Shown: piece by piece, positions 27,240 through 32,778 of the stretch
Numbering within the stretch: position 1 is the first letter of the stretch
How the letters are laid out: the number at the start of each line of letters is the position of its first letter
The notes under the pieces: generated by a model
What the model was told of the DNA's origin: nothing
The model's database searches: none
Seen by the model: the letters and a program-made list of their open reading frames with translations, nothing else
NCBI GenBank assembly: GCA_023135835.1
Contig: JAGLSI010000005.1
Coordinates: 1-33,147, forward strand
Source: Minisyncoccota bacterium
GTDB taxonomy: Bacteria > Patescibacteriota > Minisyncoccia > Phycocordibacterales > UBA12079
Length of the DNA: 33,147 bases
Direction: 5' to 3'
Program-made: the position numbers and the translations under genes

Positions 27240-27752
27240 TTAGCTTTTTCTTTTTTCTTTAAATTCTAGAGCCCTTTTAATTATATTTTCACCAACTTTA
27301 CCCCAATCAAAATATTTTTTGTAATCTTTAGGATTAATACAAAGGATTTTATCAACAAAACCAGCGGGATCTGATTCAAACTCCCCTATTTTTTCAACAA
27401 TAGCAAAATATCTTAATTGATAAAATGATTCTTGAATTCCCCTTGTATCTATAACCTTTTGATAGCCAATGAGTTTAAAATTAGTTACCTTCATATTAGA
27501 TTCTTCTTGTATTTCTCTAATTAAAGTTTCATCTGGATGTTCATTTTCTTCAATAGAACCTCCAACCAAACCCCAATTATTTTTTTCAATATCGTGAACG
27601 ATAACTATCTTTTCTCCATAAAAAGCCACAGCATAACATTGTTTGAGTCTTTCTTTTGGTAAATGATCAAAAGAATCACATTCATAATATTCAAAGATAT
27701 ATTTAACACCAGCATGTCCTAAATATTCTTCTGTAATAATTAATTTTTCCAT
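27240..27752 (-). CDS. NUDIX hydrolase
   Basis: GGSIEENEHPDETLIREIQEESN matches the Nudix box. Confidence 0.9.
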   Translation of the reverse strand: MEKLIITEEYLGHAGVKYIFEYYECDSFDHLPKERLKQCYAVAFYGEKIVIVHDIEKNNWGLVGGSIEENEHPDETLIREIQEESNMKVTNFKLIGYQKVIDTRGIQESFYQLRYFAIVEKIGEFESDPAGFVDKILCINPKDYKKYFDWGKVGENIIKRALEFKEKRKS

Positions 27753-27761
27753 AAATTATTA

Positions 27762-28298
27762 TCACCTCAACAAATTTTTATAAGTCTTTTTTAATTCATT
27801 TAATTGAGTTTCAACATCAAAAAGCCCCATTTTATTTCTTCTTTTTTCCAAATTATCTAAGTCTTCAGTAGGAGACATCACGAGCTTCCCATTTTCTATC
27901 TTAAATTGAGTACCATATAACTGTTTTTTACCTTCAGCTATTAAAATTCTATCTTCTAAATATGCTAAATCTTTAGAATCTGCCTCATTTTTTTCTACTG
28001 CTTTTTTTAATAATTTTAAAACTTCCTTCTGTAAAATAATATCTTTATCCATATGCTGAACTAATAACCAAAAATTATGAGACGCTTCCTCTCCAACTAA
28101 AGAAATAGTAGGCCAACTGTATTTTCTTAAAACTTTTTCAACAAACTTCTTACTTATTGAATCTTGAAAAATTACCTCTGAACAAAGTTCTTTAATTTGG
28201 GGAAATTTAAGAGATAGATTTCGTATATATTGATCTTGAGTCGCGTATTTATTTATCTCTATCTTTAATTTTTCATTCATATTATATATATTACACAT
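27762..28298 (-). CDS. DUF6624-like protein
   Basis: DQYIRNL...YSWPTISLVGEEASHNFWLLVQHMDKD...LAYLEDRILIAEGKKQLYGTQF...KRRNKMGL; family recalled from memory. Internal Met (MNEKL) may be the start. Confidence 0.65.
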   Translation of the reverse strand: MCNIYNMNEKLKIEINKYATQDQYIRNLSLKFPQIKELCSEVIFQDSISKKFVEKVLRKYSWPTISLVGEEASHNFWLLVQHMDKDIILQKEVLKLLKKAVEKNEADSKDLAYLEDRILIAEGKKQLYGTQFKIENGKLVMSPTEDLDNLEKRRNKMGLFDVETQLNELKKTYKNLLR

Positions 28299-28300
28299 AA

Positions 28301-28328
28301 AAAAGAGGGGTGTCTATTCCCCTCTTTT
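28301..28328 (-). terminator. Terminator after the first ATP-grasp ligase
   Basis: Minus strand AAAAGAGGGG-AATAGACA-CCCCTCTTTT. Confidence 0.8.
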
Positions 28329-28333
28329 CGGTC

Positions 28334-29260
28334 TTAAGATATTAATGCTTGTGCAATTGCTTTTCCAATAGGCAATCCCGTTCGCTCCTCTATAAATTTC
28401 CATTGTCCATTTGGATTAATTTCCAAAAAACAATACTCATCATCAGGAGTTACAATCATATCTATACATCCAAACCGTAGTCCTAACTCCGAGACATACT
28501 CAATACAAAGCTGTCTGATGTTCTTAGGTAATTCAAATATAGAAGCTTCTCCTAGCCCTCTTCTCCAATCAATTTTTGACGAGCTCTTAACCGTCGCAGC
28601 AAAAACATTATCATCAACAACAGTAATTCGTAACTCAAACTTCTTTTTAATCAATTTTTGAAAGATTACAGGAGAAAGCTTCAGCCTATCAATATTATTC
28701 ATAAATTCGGCTGTGACTTTATTTGTAAAAACAATACGATTTCCGTGAAGACTATTTGTTAATGTCTTAACAACCATCTCTTCCTCGCAGTATTTCCAAA
28801 AATCTTTAGCTCTAACAGGATTAGATGTTATTAAAGTATCAGGAATAACAAAACCCATATCCTGTGCTGTTTTTAACTGAAACGGTTTATGCTCAGCTTC
28901 AAGCATCTTGTAATAATTATTTATCCATTTAGCTTCCTTTAAGAGAGAGGCTAATGATCTCCAGAGAGCCAAAAACTGCCGATACATAAAAATTGATTCT
29001 TCATGTGGAGAATGTTCCCTCAAAGTTTTAGGTAAAACAGGTTTCCAAAACCATACTGATTCAACATTATTAAGGATATATTCCGAGATACCAACATCAG
29101 CAAATGTTTCTGCTTTTCTATCGATGAAGGAAAAACCGACTCCTTCATTCTCTAGACAGAGATCTGCCTTAAATATAATAACCTCTTTATCGCTAATTTC
29201 ACGAAGATGCGCAGTAACAGGTTCAACCAAATCTTTACTATTTCCAATTATAAATATCAT
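28334..29260 (-). CDS. ATP-grasp RiPP maturase, MvdC/MvdD (graspetide ligase)-like, locus 1
   Basis: VWFWKP, WINNYYKMLEAEHKPFQLKTAQDMGFVIPDTLITSNP, FQKLIKKKFELRITVVDDNVFAA, IDWRR, GCIDMIVTPDDEYCFLEINPNGQWKFIEERTGLPI. Strong SD AAAAAGGAGGTGTTTCATG. Confidence 0.88.
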   Translation of the reverse strand: MIFIIGNSKDLVEPVTAHLREISDKEVIIFKADLCLENEGVGFSFIDRKAETFADVGISEYILNNVESVWFWKPVLPKTLREHSPHEESIFMYRQFLALWRSLASLLKEAKWINNYYKMLEAEHKPFQLKTAQDMGFVIPDTLITSNPVRAKDFWKYCEEEMVVKTLTNSLHGNRIVFTNKVTAEFMNNIDRLKLSPVIFQKLIKKKFELRITVVDDNVFAATVKSSSKIDWRRGLGEASIFELPKNIRQLCIEYVSELGLRFGCIDMIVTPDDEYCFLEINPNGQWKFIEERTGLPIGKAIAQALIS

Positions 29261-29290: not shown

Positions 29291-29319
29291 AAGAGAGCAA
29301 CCACATGAGTTGCTCTCTT
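29291..29319 (-). terminator. Hairpin between precursor 1 and its ATP-grasp gene (candidate partial terminator)
   Basis: Minus strand AAGAGAGCAA-CTCATGTGG-TTGCTCTCTT then TTTAATCTTT, just before the ligase SD. Confidence 0.6.
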
Positions 29320-29355: not shown

Positions 29356-29496
29356 TTAGTCCAAACCAGCAGAATCTGGCTCATCATGAGTACCAATAGA
29401 AGTACCACCGAAAACAACCTGTTGTTCTCCCTCATAAACAATATTGATAGTTTCTGCAAAGTCCAAAATAAGGGGTTTTACTTGCCCTTTTTCCAT
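29356..29496 (-). CDS. Candidate graspetide precursor peptide 1 (46 aa); absent from the ORF track
   Basis: MEKGQVKPLILDFAETINIVYEGEQQVVFGGTSIGTHDEPDSAGLD; strong SD GGAAAGGAGGTGAGCGAATATG; directly upstream of and co-oriented with the ATP-grasp ligase; Ser/Thr then Asp/Glu C-terminal core. Confidence 0.75.
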   Translation of the reverse strand: MEKGQVKPLILDFAETINIVYEGEQQVVFGGTSIGTHDEPDSAGLD

Positions 29497-29707
29497 ATTC
29501 GCTCACCTCCTTTCCTATAGTAAGTATTATCGTTAAAGGACTACCTATTTATAGGATAATCTTTTGGTTAAAATAGCAATATAAATTTATTATAATCCAT
29601 AACCTTCTTATGTTCAAAAAAAACACTCTCCATTAAGTGTTTTTTGATTGACGATTCCAAAGCCTCTTTTTTGAAATGGGTAATTTATAGTAAATTCAAA
29701 AAATATT

Positions 29708-30325: not shown

Positions 30326-31402
30326 CTATTTAACTTTTATTTCAAACTTAATTCTTCCAATTACTAAATTAGATTTTGTTTTTACATCTACTCTCCATTC
30401 CCCTGCTATTAAATTATTAGCATATACATAACCCCTATAACCATCCTCCCTTCCTCCTTCAATTGGATATTCTACTTTATTATAAGAAACCCATCTATTC
30501 TTCTGATTATCATACAGAGACCATTCATAAATTATTTCTGTTTTTAAATCAGTAGGAGCAAAAACTGAAGAATAAATATAAACAGGTCCTTGGGAAATAT
30601 TTAAAAAGTTATTTCCAAAAGAATACCAAGGTACTTCTACATCTTCTAACAAATAATCTCCGTTAATACTTTTTTCTATATTTCTATAAACCCCAATTTC
30701 TTTTATTGATAAAGGAACAGGAGGAATAATATTCAAAAAATACATTAGGTTAAACAAAACAAAAACACCAATTATGTGTATAGTTATTTTTTCTTTTCTT
30801 TTTTGACTTATTTCAAGAATGAAAGAAGAAATAAACTTAATTAATCCCCAAATTAACAAGAGACTTAAAAATCCACTTAAAACAAAAATCCAAACGCCTA
30901 TTTGTTTTAAAACAACAGGAATAAAAAAAATCATAAACGAAAACAAGGCAATAAACAAAATATTTATCTGAAAATCAATTTCCTTGTACTGTTTTCTAAA
31001 TTTTTCATTCCCAATAAAAATTCCAAAAATAATTAACAAAAAAATCCAACTAGTTGTCCAAGATGCAGACTTTGTATAGAAAATAATATAAGCACTAAAA
31101 AGTCCTCCAAAAGCAAACTGAGTAACTAAGGGGATATATTTTTCAAATTTTGAAAAATATGAATATTTATCCTGTATTTCTTTAGCTTTAATATAATTAA
31201 TTAAAATAATACTAAGTACAGCTAATAACAGGTAACTTAAAATTACTAAATTATCAAAAACCTGATCAATTCGAGTCAATGTTAAATTATCTACTATCAA
31301 ACCCGTTGTAAAAAACCCAATGATTAAATATTTTTCATTTTTAGTAAACCAAGACCTAGTTTTTTCCGTTCGCTTCTTAATTCTATTCTTTAGATTTAAC
31401 AT
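30326..31402 (-). CDS. Multi-TM membrane protein with DUF2914-like C-terminal domain
   Basis: Several TM helices, then GPVYIYSSVFAPTDLKTEIIYEWSLYDNQKNRWVSYNKVEYPIEGGREDGYRGYVYANNLIAGEWRVDV. Confidence 0.65.
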   Translation of the reverse strand: MLNLKNRIKKRTEKTRSWFTKNEKYLIIGFFTTGLIVDNLTLTRIDQVFDNLVILSYLLLAVLSIILINYIKAKEIQDKYSYFSKFEKYIPLVTQFAFGGLFSAYIIFYTKSASWTTSWIFLLIIFGIFIGNEKFRKQYKEIDFQINILFIALFSFMIFFIPVVLKQIGVWIFVLSGFLSLLLIWGLIKFISSFILEISQKRKEKITIHIIGVFVLFNLMYFLNIIPPVPLSIKEIGVYRNIEKSINGDYLLEDVEVPWYSFGNNFLNISQGPVYIYSSVFAPTDLKTEIIYEWSLYDNQKNRWVSYNKVEYPIEGGREDGYRGYVYANNLIAGEWRVDVKTKSNLVIGRIKFEIKVK

Positions 31403-31516: not shown

Positions 31517-32509
31517 ATGAAAAAAATACTTTTAATCGCAAGTTTAGATGAAAAATATTATTATTTACCTTTCATTAATGCTGGTAAAGATAAAAATATT
31601 GAAATACATATTTTTGATCCTGATAGTATCCCTGAAAAAGCAGAATTAGAAATCTTTTTCAATCGAAACAGTGTCAAAATTGATGGTTTTATAGATACTA
31701 ATAAAATTGTTGAAGAAAATTTTCAGAAATCTAGAATAAAAATATCTGAAATTGATGTCGCTTGGTATTTAAGAGAAAGACCTGGGATATCTTTAAAAGA
31801 AATGAACTTAAAAAACAAATTTGCTAAAAATGAGTCAAGAGTAGCTGTTAAAACACTATTAGCTACTCTTGAGTGTAAATGGGTAAATAAAAAAGAGACA
31901 ATAGATTTTTTATCAAGCAACAAATTGTATCAACAAATAATAGCTCACAGAAGTGGATTAATTACTCCTGATACATTAATATCAAATAACGCAAAGAATG
32001 TTTCTAAATTTTCAAGATTAAAAGGAGATTTACTTTTAAAGCCTTTAGGATATATAGGAATAGATGACAAGGGAGAATATTTTCTTTATGCACAAATTTT
32101 CTCTCAAAAAGAAATTTCTAATTCTTTTGGTGCGATAAAAGCATGTCCAGTCTTTGCTCAAGAATATATAAAGAAAAGATATGAATATAGAATTATGGTT
32201 ATCGGAAATTCTGTATTATCTTGTCGTATAGATTCTCAAGCAAGTGAAAAAACAAAAATAGATTGGCGTCATTATGATTTTGAAAATGTGAATCACAGTA
32301 AAGTTGATTTACCAATAGAAATACAGAAAAAACTTCTATACTTTATGAAAAAAATTAATTTAAAATACGGAGCAATTGATATGATAGAAACTCCAAATGG
32401 AGAATTTGTTTTTTTAGAAGTTAACCCCTCTGGACAATGGGGTTGGATAGCTGATCTAGCAAAATTACCCATATCAGAAGCTGTAGTTAATATGCTTCTC
32501 AATATTTAA
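31517..32509 (+). CDS. ATP-grasp RiPP maturase, MvdC/MvdD (graspetide ligase)-like, locus 2
   Basis: AWYLRERPG, KWVNKKETIDFLSSNKLYQQIIAHRSGLITPDTLISNN, FAQEYIKKRYEYRIMVIGNSVLSCRI, IDWRHY, YGAIDMIETPNGEFVFLEVNPSGQWGWIADLAKLPI. Confidence 0.87.
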   Translation: MKKILLIASLDEKYYYLPFINAGKDKNIEIHIFDPDSIPEKAELEIFFNRNSVKIDGFIDTNKIVEENFQKSRIKISEIDVAWYLRERPGISLKEMNLKNKFAKNESRVAVKTLLATLECKWVNKKETIDFLSSNKLYQQIIAHRSGLITPDTLISNNAKNVSKFSRLKGDLLLKPLGYIGIDDKGEYFLYAQIFSQKEISNSFGAIKACPVFAQEYIKKRYEYRIMVIGNSVLSCRIDSQASEKTKIDWRHYDFENVNHSKVDLPIEIQKKLLYFMKKINLKYGAIDMIETPNGEFVFLEVNPSGQWGWIADLAKLPISEAVVNMLLNI

Positions 32510-32574: not shown

Positions 32575-32778
32575 TTAATTACGAGTAGCATCTTCCTGTT
32601 GATCATGCATTTCTGGTTGTGCTCCAGCAGTGGTAACAACAGTCATATGTGTTGCAACAGGTGTTATCACAATTCCATCTTTATCGAATTCTTCTATTAC
32701 AACTTCTGGTTTCTTTTCAATTCTACGAAGTAGAATAGGCGCATTATTATCAATTTCAAAATTATTTCCAGTTAACAT
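32575..32778 (-). CDS. Candidate graspetide precursor peptide 2 (67 aa)
   Basis: MLTGNNFEIDNNAPILLRRIEKKPEVVIEEFDKDGIVITPVATHMTVVTTAGAQPEMHDQQEDATRN; SD AAAGGAGGTTTTGCTATG; TxxTxxTT then ExxDxxED core; beside the second ATP-grasp ligase. Confidence 0.77.
   Translation of the reverse strand: MLTGNNFEIDNNAPILLRRIEKKPEVVIEEFDKDGIVITPVATHMTVVTTAGAQPEMHDQQEDATRN

Follow-up and report, generated by a model that had tools for sequence, protein, structure and literature searches.

The 33,147-nt stretch of DNA analysed here (the window; contig JAGLSI010000005.1 of a Minisyncoccota bacterium, GCA_023135835.1, whose genome we call G000) carries a 46-codon gene, and we propose, with a probability of roughly 0.88, that it encodes a graspetide precursor whose macrocyclase would be the adjacent ATP-grasp ligase (ligase 1). 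This reading draws on homologues found upstream of other ligases, a single clade to which those ligases belong, selection on the reading frame, profile and structure matches of the ligase, the pattern of leader and core, hairpins at a shared position in three genomes, and neighbouring DUF6624 genes. The gene itself, its conservation, its linkage to a ligase of macrocyclase type, the leader motif and the core pattern are shown; that the peptide is modified, how many rings it bears, any attenuation, the point of cleavage and a bioactivity are inferred. A sequence-only reading of the same DNA had pointed towards a graspetide as well, and its RiPP precursor, leader and compact core stood up to our searches, while the GG cleavage junction it had placed between the two parts did not. 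The features of the locus are collected in Table 1.

Table 1. Features of the two graspetide-type loci in the window
Feature	Position	Strand	Basis or remark
46-aa precursor gene	29356..29496 (stop included)	-	MEKGQVKPLILDFAETINIVYEGEQQVVFGGTSIGTHDEPDSAGLD + TAA; homologues, purifying selection
Shine-Dalgarno AAAGGAGGTGA	29503..29513	-	sequence
Leader recognition motif PLILDFAE (residues 8-15)	29452..29475	-	Phhx(1,2)h; comparable to microviridin PFFARFLE
Predicted core TSIGTHDEPDSAGLD (residues 32-46)	29359..29403	-	consensus in four relatives; cross-links inferred
Hairpin with U-tract, putative terminator-like attenuator, between precursor and ligase 1	29291..29319	-	z -4.3
Graspetide-type ATP-grasp ligase 1 (308 aa)	28334..29260	-	profiles, structures, intact ATP-grasp motifs
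Second hairpin, between ligase 1 and DUF6624	28300..28329	-	z -4.5
DUF6624 gene, likely partner in the biosynthetic gene cluster	27762..28280	-	PF20329, E 3.6e-19
Precursor 2	32575-32778	-	graspetide-type pair with ligase 2
Ligase 2	31517-32509	+	graspetide-type, convergent with precursor 2

Identification of the probable precursor gene

The unannotated ORF proposed from the sequence was found letter for letter, complete with an ATG start codon, a Shine-Dalgarno sequence and a stop, and it is co-oriented with ligase 1 as had been claimed, both genes lying on the minus strand. The precursor is on the 5' side, with 95 nt between its stop and the ATG of ligase 1, and the plus-strand reading of the same interval is unrelated and without meaning. 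Its Shine-Dalgarno sequence is strong, and among the relatives described below the counterpart is near-identical in G004, similar in G437 and weaker in G186. A Shine-Dalgarno sequence precedes only six of the window's ORFs between 30 and 100 aa in length, the 46-aa precursor among them, and it is the sole one of the six to pair a Phhx(1,2)h leader with a tail in which T/S residues are followed by D/E (the background for this combination was counted within the window). Such a tail occurs in one other ORF of this set, precursor 2. Searches of Pfam, NCBIfam and PHROG with the peptide gave no usable family match, an NCBIfam match to pheromone_VP1 (E 0.15) being noise; a PDB search with a profile of the peptide returned chance matches only, and no relatives of the peptide were found in the viral contigs and plasmids searched.

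An order-wide search (399 genomes) identified homologues of the precursor in G004, from the same genus (JAGLLX010000002.1, listed in the public genome set as 'Candidatus Paceibacterota bacterium'), and in G186, from another family; a class-wide search added one more in G437, from another order, and a phylum-wide draw of 389 genomes yielded no further relatives. Over full-length alignments these peptides are 93% (G004), 61% (G186) and 58% (G437) identical to that of the window. Each of the three lies directly 5' of a ligase gene with a gap of 68-79 nt, and in all four loci, then, a short precursor adjoins, and is conserved with, a clade-mate ligase 68-95 nt downstream. The family as found comprises four members, and conservation at single positions rests on few sequences. 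Weak matches in G184 (E 0.04) and G611 fell inside longer unrelated ORFs and were judged to be chance; the remaining weak matches of the class-wide search were dismissed as chance on their weak E-values alone.

Comparison of the window with G004 showed that third codon positions account for 18 of 23 substitutions in the precursor (binomial P 1.3e-5), with dN 0.058, dS 1.02 and dN/dS 0.06, and that DNA identity drops from 83% within the ORF to 56% in the upstream flank and 51% in the gap between precursor and ligase. Given this codon-position bias, the low dN/dS and an ORF conserved between diverged flanks, the precursor is a protein-coding gene under purifying selection. Loss of the ORF in relatives had been named beforehand as one observation that would speak against the gene; we looked for it and found the ORF intact. 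The rarity of the motif combination in the window, the homologues 5' of clade-mate ligases and the purifying selection together confirm that the 46-aa ORF is a real gene, beyond chance.

The adjacent ATP-grasp ligase

The profiles nearest to ligase 1 are those of ATP-grasp peptide maturases (TIGR04187, E 1.9e-62; MvdC, 9.3e-60; MvdD, 1.1e-49), no named maturase model being matched above its curated cutoff. By sequence, the solved structures closest to it belong to graspetide macrocyclases, headed by AMdnB (7m4s, E 9e-44) and including MdnB, MdnC, CdnC, PruB and PsnB, and a predicted model of ligase 1 (7-sequence alignment, pTM 0.74, weak loops) matched these six enzymes in fold ahead of RimK. 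In the alignment ligase 1 keeps the conserved ATP-grasp motifs intact, DWRR and LEINPNGQW among them. Pfam labels the domain RimK, and the same ATP-grasp subfamily holds enzymes that are hard to separate from macrocyclases by sequence (PMC8939145), and the peptide could be a substrate to which the ligase does something other than ring closure, such as adding amino acids in the manner of RimK or ligating an alpha-guanidino acid. We regard this as very unlikely, as macrocyclases are the best matches by both profile and structure, ahead of RimK, and the core of the peptide has conserved Thr/Ser residues followed by Asp/Glu.

A tree of 39 ligases unites those accompanied by a 46-aa-type precursor, four in all, in one clade with 100/100 support, and ligase 2 of the window belongs to a distant, separate clade that is likewise supported at 100/100; the two systems of the window therefore represent independent families and not a recent duplication. 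Of four genomes examined from the window's genus, two carry the ligase 1 clade, as does one of three from the family of G186; this patchy presence suggests horizontal transfer or loss. The ligase copy in G437 is cut short close to a contig end. On plasmids and in two phages, ligase 1 had distant relatives only, at <60% identity.

Leader and core of the peptide

The leader motif PLILD[FL]AE is invariant at seven of its eight positions among the four relatives (P8, L9, I10, L11, D12, A14 and E15), F13 being replaced by L in G437, and a regular-expression search matched PLILD[FL] in all four members to Phhx(1,2)h, the published leader signature of graspetide precursors (PMC8939145). The linker has four invariant residues (Y21, Q26, V27 and F29) and the core ten (T32, G35, T36, D38, E39, P40, D41, A43, G44 and D46), with S or T at positions 33 and 42, giving the consensus T[ST]xGT[HY]DEPD[ST]AGxD common to all members. 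This consensus bears out the suggested division of the peptide into a leader and, at its C-terminus, a compact core of ~15 residues, and the residues named then as likely to take part (T32, S33, T36, D38, E39, D41, S42 and D46) are correctly positioned in the window peptide. The putative core nucleophiles T32, S/T33 and T36 stand before the carboxylates D38, E39, D41 and D46, and donors ahead of acceptors is also the order in known graspetides (PMC7823629). Since the family retains four hydroxyl and four carboxyl residues, the fourth of each (S/T42 and D46) being as conserved as the three main acceptors named earlier, three rings in the core are possible. As the core lacks Lys, the predicted side-chain rings would be esters.

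In microviridin biosynthesis Arg17 of the MdnA leader touches Glu191, Asp192 and Asn195 of MdnC (PMC7823629). The position of this Arg is occupied by Asp (Asp12) in all four precursors, and in a phmmer alignment MdnC Asp192 corresponds to Phe186 of ligase 1, a position held by F, L or M in the ligases of the relatives. With both partners changed, the exact docking chemistry of microviridin is not carried over, and the leader probably uses the same docking site with a rewired contact.

The GG-like junction proposed between leader and core corresponds to a G30-G31 doublet that is present in the window peptide; the doublet before T32 is also GG in G004, but AQ in G186 and AG in G437. Searches for a C39 peptidase domain gave nothing in G000 (~90% complete, which makes the absence there not absolute), G004 or G186, and a weak partial match in G437. 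With this variation, and no C39 in three of the four genomes, a GG junction is not supported as a conserved feature, and neither the conserved GG/GA/GS doublet nor the genome-encoded C39 of the C39-processed double-glycine class was recovered for the family. Canonical GG is likewise absent from most precursors of CPR branch 1 (PMC8939145). Under the graspetide reading one may also ask whether a C39 peptidase/ABC transporter cuts the leader at GG31; the GG of the window and G004 copies suggests this, and the doublets in G186 and G437 and the C39 results make it unlikely.

Gene neighbourhood and expression

A DUF6624 gene lies 3' of the ligase in the window, G004 and G186, and near the ligase in ~12 further loci of the order. 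We set its start at 28280 by homology, within a longer ORF that begins at 28298; an AlphaFold model of the protein (pLDDT 51) was too poor to use. Loci of the ligase-2 clade showed no DUF6624 next to the ligase and have a TPR-like gene instead. DUF6624 has been reported in graspetide groups 18, 20, 23 and 42 and put forward there as a possible, so far unrecognised class of biosynthetic enzymes (Carter 2026, PMC13097080); it may correspond to 'cluster 23' of PMC8939145. The neighbouring NUDIX gene (27240-27752) was rejected as part of the locus, since no copy was found adjacent to the ligases of the relatives. Between the two graspetide loci of the window, 30326-31402 (-) encodes a predicted membrane protein with a C-terminal DUF2914, for which no match was found among the other ligase loci.

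The precursor-ligase gap also contains a hairpin in G004 (with U-tract) and in G186 (G+C-rich, without U-tract); these and the window hairpin occupy the same place with unrelated sequences, and the structure is terminator-like in two genomes. We interpret it as a site of likely partial termination that would yield more substrate than enzyme. A short ORF with a Shine-Dalgarno sequence, a terminator-like hairpin and then an enzyme gene is also the classical attenuator layout, in which the peptide would be a regulatory leader controlling the ligase and not its substrate. This we consider highly improbable: the amino-acid sequence is kept over two orders and the hairpin sequence is not, a regulatory codon run is absent, leader and core obey the rules of graspetides, and the ligase is a relative of macrocyclases that need a peptide substrate, with no other candidate substrate adjoining it.

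Under the graspetide reading, the leader PLILDFAE would dock on the ligase encoded just downstream, which would phosphorylate side-chain carboxylates in the core TSIGTHDEPDSAGLD; the upstream Thr/Ser hydroxyls would then attack the activated carboxylates, closing two to three macrolactone rings, with four as the maximum. The hairpin 3' of the precursor stop probably cuts read-through and would favour substrate over enzyme, DUF6624 probably plays an accessory role, and the leader would be removed by some non-C39 protease.

Other candidate precursors beside ligases

We observed further graspetide-type loci in the window and elsewhere, and several precursor families were recognisable beside CPR ligases by a simple search for leader and Shine-Dalgarno sequence. 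A hairpin lies between the convergent precursor 2 and ligase 2. Relatives of precursor 2 occur beside ligases in G180 (locus L034) and G348 (L037); the leader reads P[IL][LM]LRRI[EQ], the core is T[VI]VTTxGxxPEMxD, and this family matches the published branch 1 core signature. Additional candidate precursors with a PIT[FL][LI]-like leader are found beside CPR ligases in L023, L026, L027, L028 and L031, and the tails of those in L026, L027, L028 and L031 resemble DT[FM]IQ.[ST]GDSDT. A pair of candidates lies beyond DUF6624 in L020 (3125-3289, -) and L022 (3153-3305, -), with leader EIPLGILLSEE and, at the other end, PTSAWWTGGP[DE]S followed by a short acidic tail. The graspetide ligase of L024 (G355:C52, 341-1264, +) contains three in-frame TGA codons, and as two of them are at Trp positions (KWVNN and DWRR) this contig (25% GC) seems either to read TGA as Trp or to be mis-binned; a possible precursor (79-285, ...TGRDTHPDTTGDD) lies ahead of it. 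At 1703-2777 of Leptospira phage KF114876.1 (L070), a 37-aa ORF carrying two TKT/TKTE repeats (MFLVTKTDTIREVDDDMNFNNLTYLLTKTEENKEQDE) comes ahead of a graspetide-type ATP-grasp gene and may be a precursor of the repeat type.

Comparison with known systems

The source of the window is an ultra-small member of the CPR bacteria, reduced and mostly episymbiotic cells that retain genes for peptide macrocyclases. The precursor and its relatives supply a defined substrate, an enzyme and a candidate partner protein for testing. The kind of system is already known, as CPR graspetides were described by Makarova 2022 (PMC8939145) and the association with DUF6624 by Carter 2026 (PMC13097080). The peptide family itself looks new to the databases searched here, with a prior listing in the supplementary tables of PMC8939145 possible. 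For most branch 2 CPR loci the 2022 survey identified no precursor and suspected that small ORFs had been missed, and the 46-aa ORF is a missed small gene of that sort.

Like Makarova's CPR branches 1 and 2, the window locus combines a CPR ATP-grasp ligase with a small precursor bearing a Phhx(1,2)h leader, mostly non-canonical cleavage sites and a recurrent uncharacterised neighbour (cluster 23 in that survey). The branch 2 neighbours Tiki/TraB and alpha/beta hydrolase have counterparts beside the G186 and G437 loci as weak fold matches, below Pfam cutoffs. The branch 1 core TxxxTx(6-10)Dx(1-4)D, however, fits one of our four members only, and does so via a non-conserved Thr. The locus shares the set of ligase, precursor and DUF6624 with Carter groups 18, 20, 23 and 42 (PMC13097080), the last of which has many members from candidate phyla; the likeness to group 42, and to branch 2 should DUF6624 be cluster 23, is one of gene neighbourhood.

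The second pair of the window is also of graspetide type, and the architecture of the 46-aa precursor had been said to differ from that of precursor 2, as indeed it does: precursor 2 has another leader (P[IL][LM]LRRI[EQ]), another core (TxVTTxGxxPEMxD), a ligase from the other 100/100 clade, convergent gene order and a TPR-like neighbour in place of DUF6624. The microviridins (MdnA with MdnB/MdnC; AMdnB) share the ligase fold with our system, are its closest relatives by ligase sequence and have a leader, PFFARFLE, that is comparable to PLILDFAE; unlike them, the window locus has one ligase in place of the MdnB/MdnC pair, Asp12 for the leader Arg17, Phe186 for MdnC Asp192, and a core with neither TxKxPSD nor Lys. 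We found neither the PFFARFL leader nor the TxKxPSD core that mark membership of the microviridin/marinostatin family, and the peptide had no Pfam match. As a tentative suggestion, for which we would put the chances well below even, ligase, precursor and DUF6624 may constitute a distinct group of CPR graspetides, with a rewired leader recognition (Asp/Phe for the Arg/Asp of microviridin), a new TSxGTHDEPDSAGxD ring pattern, DUF6624 as partner or tailoring protein, and export and trimming that would proceed free of C39.
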